DNA from: a virus
Reading direction: 5' to 3' (one strand)
IMG/VR virus record: IMGVR_UViG_3300012984_000026
Span: 1 to 34,989 of that record
DNA: 34,989 nucleotides
Shown: positions 10,652 to 29,261 of the stretch, in pieces
Layout: each line of letters starts with the position of its first letter
Position numbering within the stretch: the stretch's first letter is position 1
Made by a program: the position numbers and the translations under genes
Notes under the pieces: generated by a model
Databases searched by the model: none
Seen by the model: only the letters and a program-made list of their open reading frames with translations
Told to the model about the DNA's origin: nothing

Positions 10652-11050
10652 TTACTTAGGCTGGGTCAGGTAGTCAATAGCGGACCGCAGCGAGTCTATG
10701 TCGTCCCCAAAGAGACCAAGTGCAGTGTTGCAGTTTGAACAGAGCAGGCCGCGAACGCAATCTCCACAACTCGACTGGCCTGGGCAGCACGAGTGATCGT
10801 GATCTATGGCCCAAGCCTTGGACGACTCGGCGCGCTTGCAGATGGCGCATCGTCCATCCTGATCTTCAAGCATCTGGTCATATCTCTCTTGAGAGATGCT
10901 GAACCGGCGAAGCCTACCCGCATGGTAGTTGTCGCGTGAGTACTCGCGCATGCAGTCACGACACCAGGACTGAAGCCCATCCTTAGTCTTCTTGTGTGGG
11001 CCGAAGGCGGTCAACGCCTTCGACTCTTCACACTTGCTACACTGCTTCAT
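10652..11050 (-). CDS. HNH / recombination endonuclease VII-like nuclease
   Basis: The product has 132 residues, and its ATG overlaps the amidase stop (ATGA). The N-terminus has two CxxC pairs (CSKCEE, CRDC) of a zinc ribbon. The C-terminal domain has CAICKR, then IDHDHSCC, then VRGLLCSNCNTALG, which is the Endonuclease VII/HNH beta-beta-alpha-metal core with its DHDH catalytic motif and CxxN. These nucleases resolve branched DNA or act as homing enzymes. A near relative lies on the other side of the endolysin, so these are likely free-standing homing-type nucleases inserted around the lysis gene. Confidence 0.9.
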   Translation of the reverse strand: MKQCSKCEESKALTAFGPHKKTKDGLQSWCRDCMREYSRDNYHAGRLRRFSISQERYDQMLEDQDGRCAICKRAESSKAWAIDHDHSCCPGQSSCGDCVRGLLCSNCNTALGLFGDDIDSLRSAIDYLTQPK

Positions 11051-11877
11051 CGGGGCTGAGCGACCTTGAGTAGCGCCCATGTCTTGGGACCGAAGTGACC
11101 ATCCGCGTCGCCCGCAAGCTCCGCGTGCTGCTTCTGGAACCACTGGACACCCTTGCGGTCAGCCGGTCCGAAGACCGGGCTGGGTCCGACCTTGTATCCC
11201 TTGTAGCCAGCTCGGACCAGGGCCTTGCCGACCTCAGTCACCAGCTTGCTGGTCCGTCCGTAGAAGAAGTACCTGTCTCCAGGGAACGGCGCATAGAGCG
11301 GCTGTGGCTTCGGAGCCGAGCCGAAGATGTTCCCCAGTGGACCCGGGTCCACGTGGCTGTTGCCAGGGACCTGATTGTGGCCGTAATGACCACCCTTGCC
11401 CTGCCAGGTAGCCTCAGAAACCGTGTCCCGAGCAAATGCAGTGGGCTCACCCCCGGGCCACACATCGGGCACACCAAGACTGCGGAGCCATGCGACGATG
11501 ACGCCGAGGTTCTTCCGAGGCGTGTCAGCGACCGTGGCGTACTTCTTGCCATTGACAGTCTCTCCCGCTGTGAACACGATCTCGATCTGGATGTTGTACT
11601 TGCCGGTACGGTTGGTCCGTACGGCTCCGTCGTTCTGGAGCGACAGGCTCCGAGAGTCGGCGGGGAAGAACTGGGCGATCTGCCCGGTGAAGGGATCCCA
11701 GAGGATGTGGGGCGCCACAGAGGCGCCGCCACCAGTGAACCAGCCCAGCTCGTTCGCGAAGGTATGGTCGTTGGCGTTCGATGTGATATGCCACGTGGCC
11801 CGAGCAGGGCCACCGTCCATGGCGCCGTGGTTCCCCAGATCGTGGCGCTGGGCGGAGGGCAGCCAAAGGTCAGTCAC
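11047..11877 (-). CDS. Endolysin: N-acetylmuramoyl-L-alanine amidase with peptidoglycan-binding domain
   Basis: The 276-residue product starts at GTG 11877 with GAAGGAG upstream, overlapping the HNH stop. An in-frame start further upstream would lie inside the HNH gene and lacks a site. Residues 1-180 are an amidase_2/PGRP zinc amidase: ATWH with H30, then APHILWD, IQIEIVF with a catalytic-region glutamate, and GHNQVPGNSHVDPG with the last zinc ligands. Residues 205-276 are a peptidoglycan-binding domain (FGPADRKGVQWFQKQH, then FGPKTWALL). It cuts the bond between MurNAc and L-alanine. No signal peptide is seen, so export depends on a holin. Confidence 0.93.
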   Translation of the reverse strand: MTDLWLPSAQRHDLGNHGAMDGGPARATWHITSNANDHTFANELGWFTGGGASVAPHILWDPFTGQIAQFFPADSRSLSLQNDGAVRTNRTGKYNIQIEIVFTAGETVNGKKYATVADTPRKNLGVIVAWLRSLGVPDVWPGGEPTAFARDTVSEATWQGKGGHYGHNQVPGNSHVDPGPLGNIFGSAPKPQPLYAPFPGDRYFFYGRTSKLVTEVGKALVRAGYKGYKVGPSPVFGPADRKGVQWFQKQHAELAGDADGHFGPKTWALLKVAQPR

Positions 11878-12220
11878 GCGGTACTCCTTCTGAGAGGTAA
11901 GCGGTGGCCTGGTTGAGTATGTTGCCAGACTCAAGCCAGCCAAGGTTGAAGTTGCAGGACACGCACAGAAGGCCCCTGACCTTGCCTGTCTCGTGACAGT
12001 GGTCTACCACCCTGGCCTCACGCTTCTCGCAGATCAGGCAAGTGCCATCCTGGTCGAAGTACATGGCTTCGTACATGCGGCGATCTACGCCATACTTACG
12101 GATCAGCTCGGTCCACCTGAAGCCCCACCCGCCCGACTTCGGATTGCAGTCCTCGCAGTACTTTCGGTTCGGTGTCGGGTTCTCCATCGGCACCCAGCAC
12201 TGTTCGCACGGGCGATTCAT
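11870..12220 (-). CDS. HNH / endonuclease VII-like nuclease
   Basis: The 116-residue product starts at ATG 12220, overlapping the end of the DUF1003 gene (ATGA). The N-terminal CEQC and CEDC pairs form a zinc ribbon. The core is CLICEKREARVVDHCHETG, then VRGLLCVSCNFNLG, matching the endonuclease VII/HNH fold with the DHCH catalytic motif. It resembles the HNH gene at 10652-11050 in layout but is clearly diverged. Being packed between the membrane protein and the endolysin with overlaps at both ends suggests a long-established insertion that keeps the operon translatable. Confidence 0.9.
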   Translation of the reverse strand: MNRPCEQCWVPMENPTPNRKYCEDCNPKSGGWGFRWTELIRKYGVDRRMYEAMYFDQDGTCLICEKREARVVDHCHETGKVRGLLCVSCNFNLGWLESGNILNQATAYLSEGVPRD

Positions 12221-12558
12221 CTCGGTACTCCTAGATGGTCGGCGATCTTGGTAACGATCGAATGGGTCTCGCTGTCTGCGAGGAAGTCTCTGTGCAGGAT
12301 CTCGCGATCCGCCTCTGCGGATCGGTTCTGGCTCATCATGATGACAGGGCCGGTGAATGCAGCCTCTGCGCTCATGAACAGGTTGGCCAGGACGTACGGG
12401 TAGTTGTCCCAATGGTAGAACCAGGCCACGCTGTTGAGCGTGAACCAGAGGGCCAGGAAGATCGCCTGGCCTATGACGAAGGGCCAGGATCCGACTCCTG
12501 CGGCGAGGGCATCAGCACAACGCTGTCCGAGGGTCTGTCCTTCACGCTTGTCCACCAT
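12217..12558 (-). CDS. DUF1003-family membrane protein, possible lysis membrane protein
   Basis: The 113-residue product has two hydrophobic helices (about residues 25-50 and 60-80). It carries the recognisable DUF1003 pattern: GQRCADALAAGVGSWPFVIGQ, then PYVLANLFMSAEAAFTGPVIMMSQNRSAEADRE. Bacterial members are inner-membrane proteins of unknown function. Here the gene is two genes upstream of the endolysin, so a holin-like or lysis-regulatory role is plausible but unproven, since a better holin candidate lies at 32785-32961. The ATG at 12558 follows a GGAGG. Confidence 0.86.
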   Translation of the reverse strand: MVDKREGQTLGQRCADALAAGVGSWPFVIGQAIFLALWFTLNSVAWFYHWDNYPYVLANLFMSAEAAFTGPVIMMSQNRSAEADREILHRDFLADSETHSIVTKIADHLGVPR

Positions 12559-14493: not shown

Positions 14494-14532
14494 CTTGACT
14501 CTCCTTTAGGGTCCAGCTTGTCCCAATGACTC

Positions 14533-14551
14533 CCCCGCCGTCAGGGCGGGG
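14533..14551. repeat. GC-rich hairpin upstream of the terminase gene
   Basis: CCCCGCC and GGCGGGG pair around a five-base loop, about 40 bases upstream of the terminase start on the minus strand. A second hairpin, GGCAGCCC with GGGCTGCC, lies at 14607-14627. Both would be in the 5' leader of the late transcript if transcription starts further right. They may affect mRNA stability or translation. Neither is followed by a T-run in the minus-strand direction. Confidence 0.55.
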
Positions 14552-14922
14552 TAGTACCCAGCGGGGAGAGTTTCCGCGAAGCGGTAGTAGGTATGTCTAC
14601 TAGGTAGGCAGCCCCTCAAGGGCTGCCCTACTCTGTTGGACTGTGGGAAGCAGAGGAACGGTAGCGAGTGTGGCCTGGAGGCCAACTCGTTCGTTCTGAG
14701 CTTACATATATATAGAGGGGGGGTGCACGGGTACCTGTGCGGGCTGAGACCCCAAACGTTACCAAGTCTTTACCAAACTAGCCCTTCTGTCCCACCTGGC
14801 GAGACGATCAGCCCCTCTGGAGGGCTTGTCCCTGTAGGTGTACCCGTCAAGTTCTATGGCAAATTTATGGGGGGTCTCACCCCACCCCACCCGGCGGCCA
14901 GTTAACAACCTGGGGTCGGTTT

Positions 14923-15478
14923 GTCCGATTTGCCCTGACATGTCCACCACCAACCATGTCACGCTACGTGATGACATGTACGACATGGGTGACATGTGAA
15001 GGATGTCCGATTCGTCCGAGCGTGGGCAGACATGTCATGATATATGACGATTGTGTAACATATGTGCTGATTTGCCGGGATCTGGGCGTGGGGACTATGT
15101 CATACCATGTCCGACTTGCCTGTTGATCTTGCAAAAGCGTACAACCCTAACTCATGCTGACATGCGATGCTATGTCCGATATGCCCCCACATGTACGGAC
15201 ATGTGCACTCCCATACGCGCACACAGGTACCCGCGCTACGCACGGGCGCGACACGCGGCTGAATCGAGCCACGAGGTGCATGTACGCGCAGGTACCCGCG
15301 CTACGCGCGTGTGTGCACACGCATCGGGGCACAAACCGGACATGTCAGCACATGTCACACCACACTTTGCAGCAAACAGTAAATCTGAAACGGACATACC
15401 TACGCAACCCATCCCAGCTTTGTAGCAAGTTCTGTATTGTTGTGCCCTGCACGTACACCAGATGTCCGATCTGCCCTG
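14923..15478. repeat. Iteron-like repeat field: dispersed ATGTCCGATNTGCCC and GACATGT motifs
   Basis: At least five copies of a roughly 16-base motif with consensus ATGTCCGATNTGCCCTG start near 14922, 15003, 15106, 15172 and 15462, all in the same orientation. A degenerate copy lies near 15064. Between them the palindromic heptamer-type motif GACATGT/ACATGTC recurs more than ten times (for example near 14938, 14973, 14990, 15029, 15190, 15199, 15340, 15350). An 18-base direct repeat is embedded. Such clustering of same-direction repeats in a non-coding region is typical of replication origins or partition sites, but no initiator gene is adjacent. Confidence 0.6.
15224..15306. repeat. 18-base perfect direct repeat inside the iteron field
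   Basis: CAGGTACCCGCGCTACGC occurs at 15224-15241 and again at 15289-15306, 65 bases apart, which is close to six helical turns. The flanks differ. It could be a protein-binding pair within the putative origin. Confidence 0.7.
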
Positions 15479-15498
15479 TTCTGCCCCGCTACGTAACA

Positions 15499-15518
15499 CG
15501 CAGGTCCTGTGACCTGCG
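15499..15518 (+). terminator. Possible intrinsic terminator hairpin
   Basis: CGCAGGTC and GACCTGCG pair perfectly (8 bp) around CTGT. A run of six T follows, but only after 11 intervening bases, so this is not a textbook terminator. It separates the iteron field from the rRNA-like leader. Confidence 0.4.
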
Positions 15519-15733
15519 GATCCCATGATTTTTTGGACCAACCTCATGATCAACAGGCGTTTGCAGGGGGTGCAACACAAGCAAAGTGAACGGTCGTTAA
15601 CGTGCTCTGACCTGCGAAGTTGGACAACATCCAGAGCAAACGCGCCTACTTAAGCCATCGCCACCAAGCAACACGGCGAAGCGGGACCGAGAACGCGCCG
15701 CCCTCCGGGGCGGTAGCCAAGGGACCTGCGCTC

Positions 15734-15754
15734 CTTTGAGAACTCAACAGCGTG
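15734..15754 (+). promoter_or_regulatory. rRNA-operon-type boxA antitermination motif (copy 1)
   Basis: TTTGAGAACTCAACAGCGTG is the boxA-containing sequence known from actinobacterial rRNA leaders and spacers (mycobacteria have TTTGAGAACTCAATAGTGTG). There NusB and S10/NusE bind the RNA to make RNA polymerase resistant to termination. Its presence outside an rRNA operon, in the sense direction relative to the plus-strand genes, suggests the phage recruits the host rRNA antitermination machinery. The 16S-like hairpin follows 70 bases downstream, as 16S follows boxA in a real operon. I could not identify the promoter that would transcribe it. Confidence 0.75.
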
Positions 15755-15824
15755 ACGACTCAGCAGGCCACAAGTGTGGCTGCATGACGAAAGGGCGCGT
15801 ACCCTCCGGGGGCGCGGACGTCCA

Positions 15825-15869
15825 AGCTAGTAGGTGAGGTAACGGCTCACCTAGGCGACGCGGACTAGT
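15825..15869 (+). ncRNA. 16S rRNA-like hairpin (helix 11 region mimic)
   Basis: The 36 bases from AGCTAGTAGGTG to CTAGGCGACG match, from memory, the E. coli 16S segment around positions 245-285 with about one change. They also match the Streptomyces version (TTGGTGAGG ... CTCACCAA) with a paired substitution that keeps the helix. TAGGTGAG (15831-15838) pairs with CTCACCTA (15846-15853) around the loop GTAACGG. GCTAG outside it pairs with CTAGT at 15865-15869. No other substantial rRNA is present in the window, so this is a fragment or mimic and not an rRNA gene. Weak resemblance may extend upstream to about 15780. Confidence 0.7.
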
Positions 15870-15990
15870 CAGGCAAAAGATCCTGCCGAGTGGTTTCTCA
15901 GCTTGCTGGGAAGCGGGGCTCCGCCCCGGGGGAAGCGTCCCCCTCAAGACGCTGGTTAGACATGCCCTCCCGACTGCGGGGCATGCACGC

Positions 15991-16018
15991 TTGACACGCC
16001 TTAGGGCGTGTCTATAGA
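15991..16018 (+). promoter_or_regulatory. Sigma-70-type promoter P1 with palindromic spacer
   Basis: A perfect -35 TTGACA (15991-15996) is followed after 16 bases by TATAGA (16013-16018), or after 18 bases by TAGAGT. The spacer contains an inverted repeat, ACGCC with GGCGT, so a repressor or activator could bind between the boxes. It points toward the early plus-strand operon. Confidence 0.72.
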
Positions 16019-16139
16019 GTCCTCCCATGCCCCAACTGAGGGGGCAGCACGCCGGAACGCCCTAGCGGCCTAAAACAGCGCGTGATGCCCTTACCGGAAC
16101 CGTTCGCGGAACCGGCTCAACCGGGGGCAGGGAAGCCTC

Positions 16140-16168
16140 TTGACAGCCCCAAAGGGGCTTGCTAGAGT
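16140..16168 (+). promoter_or_regulatory. Sigma-70-type promoter P2 with palindromic spacer
   Basis: TTGACA (16140-16145), a 17-base spacer and TAGAGT (16163-16168) form a near-consensus vegetative promoter. The spacer carries GCCCC AAA GGGGC, a perfect inverted repeat. Transcription would begin near 16175, directly at a small hairpin (GTCGGC with GCCGAC, 16175-16197). The leader then includes the four-way junction and the second boxA. Confidence 0.78.
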
Positions 16169-16206
16169 CGTCACGTCGGCGAGTTTCAAGGGCCGACAAC
16201 GCACGA

Positions 16207-16258
16207 GACACCGGCGGCAGGTGCCGCCCCCATCCCGGGGGTGTGAGCCACAGGTGTC
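16207..16258 (+). ncRNA. Perfect four-way RNA junction in the early leader
   Basis: The segment folds as a closing stem GACACC/GGTGTC (16207-16212 with 16253-16258) that encloses three hairpins with no unpaired base between any of the helices. They are GGCGGC...GCCGCC (16213-16228), CCC...GGG (16229-16241) and TGTG...CACA (16242-16252). Such a gapless cross is unlikely by chance and indicates a structured RNA in the P2 leader. It has no T-loop, so it is not a tRNA. Function is unknown; a regulatory or protein-binding leader is the natural guess. Confidence 0.55.
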
Positions 16259-16372
16259 GGGAGGGACCTTCTGAGGGGCTGTAATGGCCTCAAGGGCCTC
16301 TGGTGAACGTTACTGCCGGTCATAACGGTGGGACGGGACAGCATCCAGAGGAGTCGAGAACTCCAGGGCCGT

Positions 16373-16394
16373 TCCTTGAGAATTCAACAGTGTG
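16373..16394 (+). promoter_or_regulatory. rRNA-type boxA antitermination motif (copy 2)
   Basis: CCTTGAGAATTCAACAGTGTG is a second version of the actinobacterial rRNA boxA region, differing from copy 1 at a few bases. It lies about 200 bases downstream of the P2 start, so it would be in the early transcript. NusB/S10-dependent antitermination here could let polymerase read through the many hairpins of the downstream operon. Confidence 0.72.
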
Positions 16395-16641
16395 AAGCGT
16401 ACGAGCGGGGTGATCTCTGCTCTCAAGACGCTCAGTGTCTCATCGCGATGAACGCGACAGGCAGGTAACGGAGTCCGATTCCGCTTGCCCCCTCGGGGGT
16501 TGGTCCAGGGTCGCTAGGATGAACCGGTACTGAAGGCCTGCGTCGTGCCTCTCGCCGCTGGACTGCATCACTAAGGGTCCAGGGGGAATGCACGTAGCGA
16601 TCAGGCTGAGCTAAGTTCGTACGCAGTCCAATTCCCTGTAA

Positions 16642-16699
16642 GAGCCATCGGACACACCTACTGAGGCGTATGCGGTAGGTAGGTGTGTCCTCTTGGCTC
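16642..16699 (+). promoter_or_regulatory. Long leader hairpin before the first early gene
   Basis: GGACACACCTAC (16650-16661) pairs with GTAGGTGTGTCC (16679-16690), 12 bp, and an outer GAGCCA/TGGCTC stem extends it across a small internal loop. The structure ends 16 bases before the first early start codon and just ahead of its ribosome site. It may be an RNase III site or a translational control element. Confidence 0.65.
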
Positions 16700-16715
16700 C
16701 GCAGAGAGGATCATC

Positions 16716-23092: not shown

Positions 23093-23797
23093 TCAGCCCT
23101 CGTAGTCCTTATCGACTATGTGCTGTGCTGTATCCCCCCGGCCGACGTGTCCACGAGTGACAGCATCCGCTGTACGCCCGTCGTAGCCGTTCCTAAGGTC
23201 GCCTAGCGACCTTTCCCCGAGGGCCTTCTGAATGGCCTTCACAGCGTTGTCCAGGATCTTCTGGGCCCGCTGTCTGGTGAAGCCCATGGCGTCACCGATC
23301 TGCTGGTGTGTGTAGTGGTACTTGTAGCGCCACACCAGCGCGTTGTACTGTTCCTCTGGAAGGGACGCGATGGCACGTGAGACATCGGCATAGCTGGCCA
23401 GATTGTCGCCGGACGTGGCAGGCTCCGACTTAGCTCGGGGCATCCCGTCAGACGCAGCCTGACTGAACGACTGCCAGTCTTCGTGCTCGAACACCACTTC
23501 CAGAATGCTCTTGATCAGGTCGAGCGAGTACTCGAACCGGTCCTCCTGGTGATACCCGTAGTCAGCAGCATCCTCCTTCTTGAGGAAGTCGTTCGCAGCC
23601 TTCACAAGCAGCGGCACAACGACGTTGACCGTGGCGTTCTGATCACTCAGGACTCTGGTGACAGTGTTCTTGTTACTCATGATCCACACCCACAGCTCCT
23701 GCTTGACGTCGGAGATGTCGTGGTGGGCAGGGAAGTTGGACTTAGCGATACCGGCGGCACGCTCGACCGCCGGTGTCAGTCGGGTCCAGTCAATCAC
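23093..23797 (-). CDS. Sigma-factor-like transcription regulator, 234 residues
   Basis: I chose GTG 23797 because GGAG lies six bases upstream; the longer in-frame start lacks a site. The N-terminal part (about 20-50) contains HHDISDVKQELWVWIMSN, resembling sigma region 2.1. The C-terminal part (about 150-205), SLPEEQYNALVWRYKYHYTHQQIGDAMGFTRQRAQKILDNA, has the sequence pattern of sigma region 4 with its helix-turn-helix. It is likely an alternative sigma factor for phage promoters, perhaps the late operon whose leader has no vegetative promoter. The linker between the two regions is longer and poorly conserved. Confidence 0.72.
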   Translation of the reverse strand: MIDWTRLTPAVERAAGIAKSNFPAHHDISDVKQELWVWIMSNKNTVTRVLSDQNATVNVVVPLLVKAANDFLKKEDAADYGYHQEDRFEYSLDLIKSILEVVFEHEDWQSFSQAASDGMPRAKSEPATSGDNLASYADVSRAIASLPEEQYNALVWRYKYHYTHQQIGDAMGFTRQRAQKILDNAVKAIQKALGERSLGDLRNGYDGRTADAVTRGHVGRGDTAQHIVDKDYEG

Positions 23798-23942
23798 AGT
23801 AGTCTCCAAGTCCCTCGATGAAGTCCAGCATCCTAGCATCGCACGCCAGATGGGCGTGCGCTCCTTCTCTCAGTTCCAACGCTGGCTCACCTGGTAGTAT
23901 TCCCTGCCAGCACCAGACGCAGATGTCAGTAGCGTTCCCCAT
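23790..23942 (-). CDS. CxxC mini-protein, 50 residues
   Basis: ATG 23942 lies inside the end of the metallophosphoesterase gene and the stop overlaps the start of the sigma-like gene, so the three genes are coupled. The protein has ICVWCW near the N-terminus and a lone cysteine and histidine later (AHAHLACDARM), enough for one zinc site. It resembles small zinc-finger antisigma or adaptor proteins only in size; function is unknown. Its position invites testing as a partner of the sigma-like protein. Confidence 0.65.
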   Translation of the reverse strand: MGNATDICVWCWQGILPGEPALELREGAHAHLACDARMLDFIEGLGDYCD

Positions 23943-26517: not shown

Positions 26518-26923
26518 GATCGAGATCACTCTGCCGACCGTCCAGTACGGCAACGTCAAGCTGAAGACCACCATTGAGGAACTCGGCATGGCCGAGCTGG
26601 ACGCCGGTACGCTGGGGTCCGTAACTGCCGTCTTCCTGAACCTGTTCTCTCAGGGGTTCAAGGTGGGTTCTCAGATCGACGTGGACTGGCAGGGCGCCGA
26701 CGTCTCGGCGCTCCCCAGAGACACACTGGAGCAGGCTGCCAGCGCCATCAAGGACGTCCTCGGTGCGACCGAGGTGCCCGACCCCGAGGACAACGTCGAC
26801 CCTGACGGTCCCGAGACTTCCGACGACGCGCCCTGGAAGAAGAAGGTTGACTCCAAGGCGAAGCCGTGGGAGACTAGCGGTGCGGCCCCTGCCGCACCCG
26901 CAGTTGCAAGTATCGACTGGTAG
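26510..26923 (+). CDS. Unknown 137-residue protein with acidic, disordered tail
   Basis: The N-terminal 85 residues form a small folded domain (IEITLPTVQYGNVKLKTTIEE and IDVDWQGADVSAL). From about residue 90 the protein is acidic and proline-rich and ends in ASIDW. An acidic tail ending in a hydrophobic aromatic pair resembles ssDNA-binding proteins, whose tail docks partner enzymes, but no OB-fold signature is clear. It sits between the Cas4-like nuclease and another candidate ssDNA-binding gene. I leave it unnamed. Confidence 0.72.
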   Translation: MAEIEITLPTVQYGNVKLKTTIEELGMAELDAGTLGSVTAVFLNLFSQGFKVGSQIDVDWQGADVSALPRDTLEQAASAIKDVLGATEVPDPEDNVDPDGPETSDDAPWKKKVDSKAKPWETSGAAPAAPAVASIDW

Positions 26924-27396
26924 TGTCTGAGTTTCAGATCGACTGGTCACAGGTAGGATACACCAAGACACAAGGAGTTACATTGAAGCTCAACGAGATC
27001 ATGGGTGGCGGAGACAAGGTCCCGGTCGTCAACCTCAAGGTTGAGGGCGAGGCCGTGGCCGGTGTCATCACCGACATCAAGACGGACGCTCCGGTGTTCG
27101 ACTTCGTCTCCAAGAACCAGAAGTTCTGGGTGGACGGCAAGCCTCAGCCGGTGAAGAAGGAGGAGGCGGCAGCCGCCGGGTACAACCCGGTCCACCAGAT
27201 CATGATCACGATCACGAAGGAGGACGGGACCTCGGCCCGGATCCCCTTCAACAGCAAGGACGAGCGGGAGGCGCTGAAGACCGCCATCGCTGACGCTGGT
27301 GGCGAGATCAACCTCGGTGACACCATCGGCAAGAAGCTCGTCAAGCGTGAGGGCAACATCAAGACTCACGTGGTGAAGCTGGTCCCGGCTAGCTGA
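26923..27396 (+). CDS. Unknown 157-residue protein, candidate ssDNA-binding
   Basis: GTG 26923 overlaps the previous stop by one base (TAGTG). The protein is alpha/beta with basic stretches (VKKEEAAAAGYNPVHQ, TIGKKLVKREGNIKTHVVKL) and a beta-rich core (VPVVNLKVEGEAVAGVITDIK). The N-terminal FQIDWSQVG echoes the SIDW end of the previous protein. The position between nuclease and helicase genes suggests DNA binding; no decisive motif is visible. A strong hairpin ends this group six bases after its stop. Confidence 0.7.
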   Translation: MSEFQIDWSQVGYTKTQGVTLKLNEIMGGGDKVPVVNLKVEGEAVAGVITDIKTDAPVFDFVSKNQKFWVDGKPQPVKKEEAAAAGYNPVHQIMITITKEDGTSARIPFNSKDEREALKTAIADAGGEINLGDTIGKKLVKREGNIKTHVVKLVPAS

Positions 27397-27401
27397 CCCA
27401 A

Positions 27402-27424
27402 GGGCGCCCCCTTCGGGGGCGCCT
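27402..27424 (+). terminator. GC-rich hairpin, possible terminator
   Basis: GGCGCCCCC and GGGGGCGCC pair through nine bases around a UUC loop. No T-run follows. The tmRNA-like element begins five bases later, so this hairpin may also serve as its 5' boundary or processing guide. Confidence 0.6.
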
Positions 27425-27428
27425 GCTA

Positions 27429-27506
27429 GGGCCTGATTCGGTATCGTCCAGGGTGAAAGCCGCATGCGGAACGCCTTGGCACAGGGGTTCGATTCCCCTC
27501 AGGTCC
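27429..27506 (+). ncRNA. TLS8: tmRNA tRNA-like-domain look-alike (78 nt)
   Basis: Acceptor GGGCCTG/CAGGTCC (7 bp) has a G-U at the third pair, T-arm AGGGG/CCCCT carries loop TTCGATT, and A follows as discriminator. There is no D stem: ATTCGGTATCGT leads directly into a long arm CCAGGGTG/CGCCTTGG (8 bp) capped by CCGCATGCGG. Bacterial tmRNA has the same layout, with GGGGCUGAUUC at its 5' end, a stemless D-loop, a long P2 helix and G3-U70 for alanylation. Here the message and pseudoknots are missing. No five-base anticodon stem with seven-base loop can be drawn, so it is not a normal tRNA. Confidence 0.7.
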
Positions 27507-27555
27507 ACAACCCACGGCGGTAGCCGTGGCTAGAGCCACCCGAAGGGATGGCGTT

Positions 27556-27633
27556 GTGTCACCAACACCCGAGCAAGAGAAGGAACTGGACGAGGCTGCG
27601 AAGAGGTTCGCACAGACGAAGGGAGGGAAGTAA
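27556..27633 (+). CDS. 25-residue charged peptide
   Basis: GTG 27556 with GAAGGGA eight bases upstream, stop TAA overlapping the next ATG (TAATG). The peptide is helical and charged (PEQEKELDEAAKRFAQ). It lies just after the tmRNA-like element and two small hairpins. The ribosome site and the overlap support translation; function is unknown, and it may be a coupling leader. Confidence 0.5.
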   Translation: MSPTPEQEKELDEAAKRFAQTKGGK

Positions 27634-27845
27634 TGGAAGCCCGCAAGTTCTTCGAGAACAGCCCGATGCATGAGATCACCGTGTCAGCCGAGCCTGGCAT
27701 GTGGCGGGATGTCCTACTGGATCTGGAAGAGATGCGAGCACAGATCCACTACTACCGCAGCCTGCGTGTCGTTGATGACGACGGCACTTACGAGTACGAG
27801 GTTGGCACCTCGTACCTGATTGAACAGTTGGAGGCGATCCTCTGA
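27633..27845 (+). CDS. Unknown acidic protein, 70 residues
   Basis: ATG 27633 follows GGGAGGG in the end of the small peptide gene. The protein is acidic with a helical centre (MWRDVLLDLEEMRAQIHYYRSL) and a C-terminal helix (TSYLIEQLEAIL). No motif was recognised. A GGAGG near its end may serve the ATPase gene that follows. Confidence 0.68.
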   Translation: MEARKFFENSPMHEITVSAEPGMWRDVLLDLEEMRAQIHYYRSLRVVDDDGTYEYEVGTSYLIEQLEAIL

Positions 27846-27928
27846 AAACCCTAGCTCGACAGGTTCGACGCGGCGTCTCCGCAGGAGAGCCGCTGCCGGA
27901 CCCGTGGCCCATCTTCGGAGCCAACAAG

Positions 27929-28705
27929 ATGACACTGCGCAGGGGCAGCATCTCGATGATCGCTGGCCCGCCGGGCTCCATGAAGACCATCATGACGCTC
28001 AACGCAGTGAAGAACATGCAGGTGCCCACGCTGTATCACAGCTCCGACTCGGACGACTTCACGATGGCAAGCCGGTCGCTCTCCATGCTGACTGGTACGC
28101 CCACCGATGAGACCGAGACGTGGGTCATGACGCAGCACAAGCTCGCCTATGAGACGCTGAAGGACATGGACTTTGTCCGCTGGTCCTTCAGGTCTAGCCC
28201 CACCCTGGAGCACATGGGCCGGGAGGCCGAAGCCTTCCGTGAGCTGAAGGGTGAGTACCCTCACCTCACCGTGATCGACATCATGATGGACATTGACTAT
28301 GAGGGGGCCGGTGAGCAGAACTACTGGGCCCTCATGGCTGAACTGAAGGACATGGCACGTGAACAAGAGACTGCGATCCTGGTCGTTCACCATACGAGTG
28401 AGTCCGCAAAGGCCGGGTCTCCCCCTCCTCGCTCGGCGATCATGGGTAAGGCCAACCAGCTCCCAACACTCATTGTCACTCTGTGGGGGGATGCTCACGC
28501 TGGTACTCTGGACGTGGCGACAGTGAAGAACCGCTTCGGTCCGCAGGATGCGATGGGCAAGAAGTACTTCAAGATGAGTGCTCAGCCTGGCATCTGCCTG
28601 ATCGAGGAGATGGACCAGCCTGAACCCATGGGGATTCTGTTCAACGATGGACCCCGAGTCCCGTCCGATGAGAAGATCGACGTTTGGAAGGACGACGATG
28701 TGTAA
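27929..28705 (+). CDS. RecA/DnaB-like ATPase, probable replicative helicase
   Basis: From ATG 27929 the product has 258 residues. The Walker A region is AGPPGSMKT (residues 12-20), where Met replaces the second glycine of GxxGxGKT. LTVIDIMMD is in the Walker B position and ILVVHHTSES in the sensor strand, as in DnaB/RecA-type ATPases. It probably unwinds DNA at the fork with the primase downstream. A CTG at 27842, seven bases after GGAGG, would add 29 residues (LARQVRRGVSAGE, then PDPWPIFGANK) that read as natural coding and close an otherwise odd 83-base gap, so the true start may be there. Confidence 0.82.
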   Translation: MTLRRGSISMIAGPPGSMKTIMTLNAVKNMQVPTLYHSSDSDDFTMASRSLSMLTGTPTDETETWVMTQHKLAYETLKDMDFVRWSFRSSPTLEHMGREAEAFRELKGEYPHLTVIDIMMDIDYEGAGEQNYWALMAELKDMAREQETAILVVHHTSESAKAGSPPPRSAIMGKANQLPTLIVTLWGDAHAGTLDVATVKNRFGPQDAMGKKYFKMSAQPGICLIEEMDQPEPMGILFNDGPRVPSDEKIDVWKDDDV

Positions 28706-28752: not shown

Positions 28753-28842
28753 ATGTGTTGTGACAAGCCGTGCATCGTCGCGGTCTGGATCGATGGCAAG
28801 TACGTCAACCAGTGCATCAACTGCGGCAAGGTGGTCGGGTGA
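28753..28842 (+). CDS. 29-residue zinc-ribbon-like peptide
   Basis: The ATG follows the previous stop by one base. The peptide has CCDKPC and later CINCGKVVG, the typical two-knuckle zinc ribbon with a beta turn between (VAVWIDGKYVNQ). The stop overlaps the GTG of the nuclease gene. It may be a stand-alone zinc ribbon binding nucleic acid or protein. Confidence 0.55.
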   Translation: MCCDKPCIVAVWIDGKYVNQCINCGKVVG

Positions 28843-29261
28843 CCCGAGGGCTGAAGAAGTTCTGTAAGGATTGTCCCGAGGGGAGCCGTCGACCGGCTCC
28901 CCATCCGGGGCCACGGTGTGCAACACACCACAGGGAGGTCCAGAAGCAGCGTAGAGAGGCCGCTCACAGCCGCAGGATCTACGAGGTGTACGGACTGACC
29001 AAGGACCAGTACGAGTCCCTATACAAGGCGCAGGGAGGCACGTGCTATATCTGCCAGCGAGCATTCGGCAAACGCAAGAAGCTGGCAGTTGACCACGACC
29101 ACAAGACCGGTTACGTTCGTGGCTTGCTGTGCTCTCCGTGCAACAATATCCTCGCACACCTGCGGGACGACAAGGATGCGGCACACCGAGTGTTCGTGTA
29201 CTTGTACAACCCGCCAGCATTCAATACGATAGGACAGGTGAGACCGGATGGAACTGACTGA
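28839..29261 (+). CDS. Recombination endonuclease VII-like nuclease
   Basis: GTG 28839 overlaps the previous stop (GTGA); the start further upstream would be inside the 29-residue frame. Of 140 residues, the N-terminus is basic with CKDCPEG. The core is YGLTKDQYESLYKAQGGTCYICQRAF, then VDHDHKTG with the DHDH motif, then VRGLLCSPCNNILAHL with the second zinc CxxC and catalytic asparagine. It resolves branched DNA such as Holliday junctions. Lying inside the replication operon, it likely debranches DNA before packaging, unlike the lysis-flanking HNH copies. Confidence 0.92.
   Translation: MTRGLKKFCKDCPEGSRRPAPHPGPRCATHHREVQKQRREAAHSRRIYEVYGLTKDQYESLYKAQGGTCYICQRAFGKRKKLAVDHDHKTGYVRGLLCSPCNNILAHLRDDKDAAHRVFVYLYNPPAFNTIGQVRPDGTD

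Follow-up and report, generated by a model that had tools for sequence, protein, structure and literature searches.

The locus examined here raises the question of whether a short element in the genome of a soil phage represents a tmRNA pared down to the tRNA-like domain and, if so, what such an RNA would do in an infected cell. The element lies in a viral record of 34,989 bases, the whole of which is termed the window in the following. By DNA comparison, its kin are the Streptomyces phages Stella, Manuel, and FlowerPower, of which Manuel and Stella belong to the Beephvirinae.

A tmRNA without message and pseudoknots

The element is a message-less tmRNA. A preliminary description had already interpreted it as the tRNA-like domain of tmRNA lacking message and pseudoknots, and the covariance search with the tmRNA model that it proposed as a check bears this interpretation out: Rfam model RF00023 matches the window element with 55.2 bits (E 3.3e-19), the cut-off being 47, or with 46.6 bits if only 161 bases are supplied. 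Specifically, the alignment extends from model position 1 to 374 but skips the region of message and pseudoknots, so that approximately 300 positions are absent, and since the score exceeds the cut-off despite this gap, the match is better than chance. Pseudoknots PK1 to PK4 are absent from the window element in this alignment, and no message domain comprising a resume codon and a tag frame emerged from the alignment or from ARAGORN, which reports no gene, tRNA or tmRNA, in the window. The lack of a tag reading frame had been noted before; there is no room for one because the D-loop and the T-arm are separated by only about 35 nt, all of which are used by helix H2. The model of permuted (two-piece) tmRNA, RF04321, was rejected at 12.5 bits against a cut-off of 47.

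The tmRNA features that are present comprise a 7-bp acceptor with G3-U70 and A73 and, forming the SmpB-binding elbow, a stemless D-loop with GG...UCGA-like letters and a tRNA-like T-arm (Table 1). The acceptor (GGGCCTG/CAGGTCC, pairing at 7/7 positions), the stemless D-loop, and the T-arm with loop TTCGATT had all been recognized correctly. The discriminator A is present as well but sits at position 27507, one base past the end assigned previously (27506), and the "long helix" reported in place of an anticodon arm exists as H2, although its AAAG/AA internal loop and CCGC-AT-GCGG hairpin had gone undescribed. The minimum-free-energy fold agrees with this structure (-35.5 kcal/mol, z -2.3).

TABLE 1 Features of the message-less tmRNA gene and its surroundings in the window, and positions of Microbacterium-type copies
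Feature	Position	Strand	Evidence or remark
Upstream gene, no PHROG or Pfam match	26923..27396	+	tblastn
G+C-rich hairpin GGCGCCCCC-TTC-GGGGGCGCC, just upstream of the element	27403..27423	+	
Message-less tmRNA gene (tRNA-like structure only, TLS-only)	27429..27508	+	Rfam RF00023 and model R1
Gene ends, G1 to C74	27429..27508	+	CCA beyond C74 not encoded
Acceptor 5' strand GGGCCTG, with G3 of G3-U70	27429..27435	+	7/7 pairs with 27500-27506
Stemless tmRNA-type D region ATTCGGTATCGT	27436..27447	+	Matches Rfam tmRNA consensus
Capped helix H2, replacing the message	27448..27479	+	Minimum-free-energy fold and pair conservation
H2, 8 bp, CCAGGGTG/CGCCTTGG	27448-27455 with 27472-27479	+	
H2 internal loop AAAG / AA	27456-27459 / 27470-27471	+	
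H2 hairpin CCGC-AT-GCGG	27460-27469	+	
Junction CAC, H2 to T-arm	27480..27482	+	A at 27481 invariant (column 57, A in 24/24)
T-arm AGGGG-TTCGATT-CCCCT	27483..27499	+	T-stem pairs covary
Acceptor 3' strand CAGGTCC (27500-27506, with U70 of G3-U70) and discriminator A73 (27507)	27500..27507	+	
Small downstream gene, 70 aa	27633..27845	+	Homologue at the same place in related contigs
DnaB-like replicative helicase	27929..28705	+	PHROG 243, E 1.1e-66
Microbacterium-type copies	L168:539-628, L176:701-790, L177:701-791		
Microbacterium-type copies, continued	L178:686-775, L180:501-590, L181:481-570		

Relatives in phages and the search for them

A covariance model, R1, was built from nine other phage sequences, the window being left out. 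It scores the window element at 88.3 bits (E 7.2e-19), members in general at 58 to 102 bits, and the best ordinary tRNA at 41. By blastn, the same unannotated RNA was found in the Streptomyces phages BRock, Alone3, LuckySocke, GiJojo, Tomas, Naboo, Riptide, and pSt2308, near a tRNA-Val gene in those that carry annotation; further carriers are Jay2Jay, Targaryen, Evy, and the Pontimonas phage phiPsal1. In the named phage records checked, the element is either unannotated or mislabelled as a CDS or tRNA; in GiJojo (L089:2499-2741), an annotated protein gene, probably a false CDS, overlies the TLS-only RNA.

Pattern scans of viral contigs from IMG/VR, which are metagenomic and many of them fragments, yielded many additional relatives. 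Because some of these scans had used letters of H2, and because a script had demanded paired ends in the earlier hits, the scan was repeated on the viral contigs with letters of the D-loop and T-arm only. This motif-free scan gave at least 118 distinct matches, at least 101 of them TLS-like; among the TLS-like matches listed (101), 97 have G3-U70 and 99 have A73, and in the motif-free matches listed the length of the H2 insert clusters at 36 to 38 nt. An odd tRNA-like gene with an enlarged D arm (L040:11168-11249, minus strand; 35 bits as tRNA, 41 with R1) was rejected as a family member. On another viral contig, a Pistol ribozyme (RF02679, 71.3 bits; L045:6052-6115, minus strand) lies about 900 nt from a TLS-only RNA.

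Bacterial sequences were covered in several ways, which yielded negatives of unequal strength. The motif pattern matched 28 times in 84,980 genome assemblies, always within coding sequence and in a chance-like manner, so that no bacterial gene was found; the motif-free pattern matched none of 297 actinomycete genomes, which carries little weight because less sequence was covered; the model search of 396 Actinomycetota genomes was empty among the 11 candidates scored per genome; and the plasmid search returned short partial matches only. The earlier idea of an "ancestor-like relative of the minihelices" is not supported. Instead, the RNA looks derived from tmRNA, because it keeps tmRNA-specific letters in D-loop, junction, and T-arm and was encountered only in phages in these searches.

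Covariation and conserved alanine identity

Covariation was assessed in a first set of 24 distinct members and in a second set of 91 sequences, taken from the motif-free matches listed and aligned to the model. In the first set, 96.7% of the pair cells are formed, 17 of the 24 pairs change on both sides, and covariation reaches 0.647, compared with 0.149 for shuffled and at most 0.11 for slid alignments. The pairs of H2 are formed to 95.3%, seven of the eight showing two-sided changes, and G3-U70, the second G of the D-loop (alignment column 14), and the G of TCG (column 19) are each invariant in 24/24 members. Consistently, 95.7% of the pair cells are formed in the 91 sequences, all four helices covary (0.668, versus 0.131 shuffled and at most 0.09 slid), and the H2 pairs of this motif-free set are formed to 94.2%. 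G1-C72 and G3-U70 occur in 91/91 sequences each, whereas at least four pair types are seen at each of the acceptor pairs 4-69, 5-68, and 6-67, which vary freely. Note that the scripts required at least 6/7 acceptor and at least 4/5 T-stem pairs, which introduces a selection bias in both stems; because of this preselection, the unbiased evidence consists of the pairing of H2 and the G3-U70 wobble. The G3-U70 pair specifies alanine identity (PMC3968760). Since the helices covary while G1-C72 and G3-U70 stay fixed, selection acts on the RNA and on its alanine identity and appears to keep the RNA chargeable.

The internal loop of H2 is purine-rich yet variable in the motif-free set and not strictly AAAG/AA. 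The strict motif is weakened as a family hallmark, several scans having used those very letters. A purine-rich asymmetric loop together with a hairpin of the CCGC-AN-GCGG type nevertheless recurs in H2 of many motif-free relatives; others, such as L242, L310, and L253, have a plain H2 hairpin alone.

Genomic neighbourhood and transcription

The helicase gene downstream (Table 1) marks a replication block that contains the element. Contigs L009, L010, L013, L014, and L059 are kin of the window phage and carry the element between the same neighbours; in the last four, a homologue of the upstream gene with 47% identity, detected by tblastn, precedes it. In related contigs that carry the element, helicase identity is 80 to 83%; it is 66% in Manuel and Stella, where the element is absent from the stretches examined and no tmRNA match was obtained. 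A partner gene conserved beside the element across phages was not found. In Stella, a 109-nt match to bacterial 16S rRNA was observed (L006:879-987, plus strand; model positions 106-311, 79.6 to 85.4 bits), with one arm swapped for a short loop.

Neither a promoter nor a T-run terminator was found in window positions 26900-27900. The relative in L059 is preceded by a G+C-rich hairpin nearly identical to that of the window, plus TGCTA. Promoter-like sites precede two other relatives, namely TTGACA-17-TATACT, ending 13 nt 5' of the element in L109, and TTGACT-17-TATAAT, ending 17 nt 5' of it in L044, which suggests separate transcription in these two contigs; the window copy may be processed out of a longer transcript.

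Other parts of the window were noted in passing. An endonuclease VII type gene (E 1.1e-65) is located at 28770-29258 (plus strand), and the protein encoded at 23096-23839 (minus strand), a possible phage sigma factor, contains a sigma-70 region 4 domain (E 2.7e-8); the open reading frames at 10652-11143 and 11870-12412 (minus strand) look, by eye only, like HNH-type endonucleases. The stretch from 14500 to 16700, which adjoins the terminase gene, has no convincing gene and features inverted and direct repeats of 17 to 21 nt; it probably represents the genome ends or an origin.

Coexistence with complete tmRNA

Phages Tomas, Naboo, Riptide, and Jay2Jay and contig G004 all encode a complete tmRNA elsewhere in the genome in addition to the small RNA. 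The tags are DNSNVAFALAA in Tomas and Naboo and ANSNVASAYALAA in G004 according to ARAGORN, and ANSKFAFALAA in Riptide according to its record; the Riptide genome paper lists 39 tRNAs and one tmRNA and leaves the small RNA unmentioned (PMC12509530). In 13 other viral records, the element is the sole tmRNA match. A full-length tmRNA as recent parent was rejected, as the complete tmRNA and the small RNA of Tomas differ in acceptor and T-arm, and a permuted "tmRNA*" called by ARAGORN in BRock was dismissed, as it spans several tRNAs.

Proposed function and alternative explanations

We lean towards the view that the locus encodes a stable RNA consisting of the tRNA-like domain, which would be alanylated and, by binding SmpB and EF-Tu, compete with host trans-translation. 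More generally, phage TLS-only RNAs probably jam or modify ribosome rescue of the host. The window phage would transcribe the locus into a stable RNA of approximately 79 nt (82 with CCA), closed by the hairpin of H2 and devoid of message and pseudoknots, which host RNase P and the CCA enzyme would mature. Judging from the conserved determinants, host AlaRS would charge it with alanine via G3-U70, and SmpB and EF-Tu would bind it as they bind a real tRNA-like domain; the tmRNA-type D-loop and T-arm constitute the SmpB-bound surface (PMC3968760). The RNA would compete with host tmRNA for SmpB and/or enter stalled ribosomes, which we infer it can bind, and would provide no message there on which to resume; trans-translation would be lowered or redirected during infection. 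This inhibitory outcome is modelled on a published analogue: a passage in PMC4131195, citing Mao et al. 2009, states that a molecule like the tmRNA of mycobacteriophage DS6A, chargeable or not, strongly inhibits tmRNA, perhaps through SmpB titration, the setting being E. coli (PMC11915505). The earlier suggestion of an alanylated decoy or a ligand of SmpB or EF-Tu is plausible because G3-U70 is invariant in the 91 sequences and because of this reported inhibition.

The retention of the element between the same genes, though the flanking protein is only 47% identical, argues for a competitor; the missing promoter at the window copy argues against it. Three observations speak against a plain SmpB sponge: the complete tmRNA that some carriers encode would be inhibited too, the published inhibition needs no charging and yet G3-U70 is invariant in the relatives, and the conserved loop and hairpin of H2 exceed what a sponge needs. 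A broader reading, put forward tentatively and possible rather than probable, is that message-less tmRNAs are a common class of phage RNA controlling ribosome rescue, charged, acting on the ribosome via SmpB and the conserved loop and hairpin of H2, and sufficiently different from tmRNA for some phages to encode the two side by side, the tmRNA being complete.

The main rival, unlikely on the whole, is a tagless rescue factor, in which the alanyl-RNA with SmpB and EF-Tu would enter stalled ribosomes and take over the nascent chain, and the ribosome would be recycled with no degradation tag added; stalled phage proteins would thus be spared, tagging being replaced and rescue not blocked. The invariant alanine identity and the full tRNA-like geometry imply that charging matters, the coexistence with complete phage tmRNAs is in line with such a role, and mitochondrial CDS-less tmRNA is thought to retain a role with SmpB (PMC11915505). 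However, no peptide-release step from a message-less RNA is known, and the one experiment published for a molecule of this sort showed inhibition (PMC4131195).

Less probable again is a function centred on H2, for which the tRNA-like fold would merely confer stability and charging while the loop and hairpin bind another protein or the ribosome, or the RNA serves as alanine donor in a modification. Such a role would account for the recurrence of both elements in relatives found motif-free, and in tmRNA complexes H2 faces the 30S beak and later L11 (PMC3968760); the plain H2 of L242, L310, and L253 and the lack of a neighbouring partner gene conserved across phages count against it.

That the element is a relic or an integration site, i.e., the remnant of a tmRNA gene used as attB or a complete phage tmRNA in decay, seems very improbable. 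According to a passage in PMC11915505, ssrA is often used by integrating elements, and acceptor and T-arm are one base off the full tmRNA of Streptomyces phage Forrest. Covariation largely refutes the reading, however, both halves of the molecule being present and covarying; moreover, a match to the 25 nt of the 3' end is absent from 395 actinomycete genomes, on which ground an attP site or a host gene copy was rejected, no integrase occurs among the neighbouring genes tested, and the position is conserved in relatives. An ordinary tRNA with unusual arms, named at the outset as the finding that would overturn the assignment, or a chance fold can practically be discarded: acceptor and T-arm features are common to tRNA and tmRNA, and both Rfam families belong to one clan, but ARAGORN finds no tRNA at 27429-27508, D-stem and anticodon arm are missing from a fold that shows H2 with an internal loop, and the RF00023 score, the R1 scores of members against those of ordinary tRNAs, and the covariation of 91 sequences refute it.

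If these RNAs inhibit or redirect trans-translation, they would represent a phage small-RNA counter to a conserved bacterial quality control, and the invariant G3-U70 raises the question of why a decoy should need charging. The cultured Streptomyces phages BRock, Tomas, Riptide, and Jay2Jay make the function directly testable.

Comparison with known systems

Like canonical one-piece tmRNA (ssrA), the window RNA has an acceptor with G3-U70 and A73, a stemless D-loop, the T-arm, and the start of H2; in contrast to it, message, tag frame, and pseudoknots are lacking, and the length is about 80 instead of about 350 nt. The TLD-only kind of tmRNA is already known from DS6A, whose tmRNA (tmID 11587), listed as "TLD only" in 2014 (PMC4131195), is likewise a phage-encoded tRNA-like domain without tag frame (PMC4131195, PMC11915505). 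Compared with DS6A as described there, the window family has a conserved loop and hairpin in H2 and many members elsewhere. In the literature found, one phage example is discussed, as against the at least 101 distinct TLS-like elements in viral contigs reported here; besides this scale, the conserved purine-rich H2 loop with its covarying hairpin cap and the coexistence with complete tmRNA appear to be new, no earlier description having been found in the literature consulted.

In the 2025 tmRNA database, nine sequences are classed as "standard, no CDS"; DS6A and plastid forms of approximately 65 bp are cited there (PMC11915505). CDS-less organelle tmRNAs, from jakobid mitochondria and Mallomonadaceae plastids (the forms of about 65 bp), also have no reading frame (PMC11915505); they occur in organelles and not in phages, and the phage forms are one-piece RNAs with a capped H2 and strong covariation. 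A form of approximately 90 nt in Microbacterium phages (Quenya, Dismas, Skylord, and others; 24 records matched) is TLS-only, mostly unannotated, and located beside phage tRNA genes, the copy in BAjuniper being annotated as tRNA-Pro(agg). It shares the GGGCCTG/CAGGTCC acceptor with the window RNA but has a different and longer H2 hairpin and reaches just 39 bits with R1. Nearly the same design, with acceptor, D-loop, T-arm, and a shortened H2, is found in the TLD fragments of the TLD-SmpB and TLD-SmpB-EF-Tu ribosome structures (PMC3968760); these fragments are laboratory constructs, whereas the window RNA is a natural gene.
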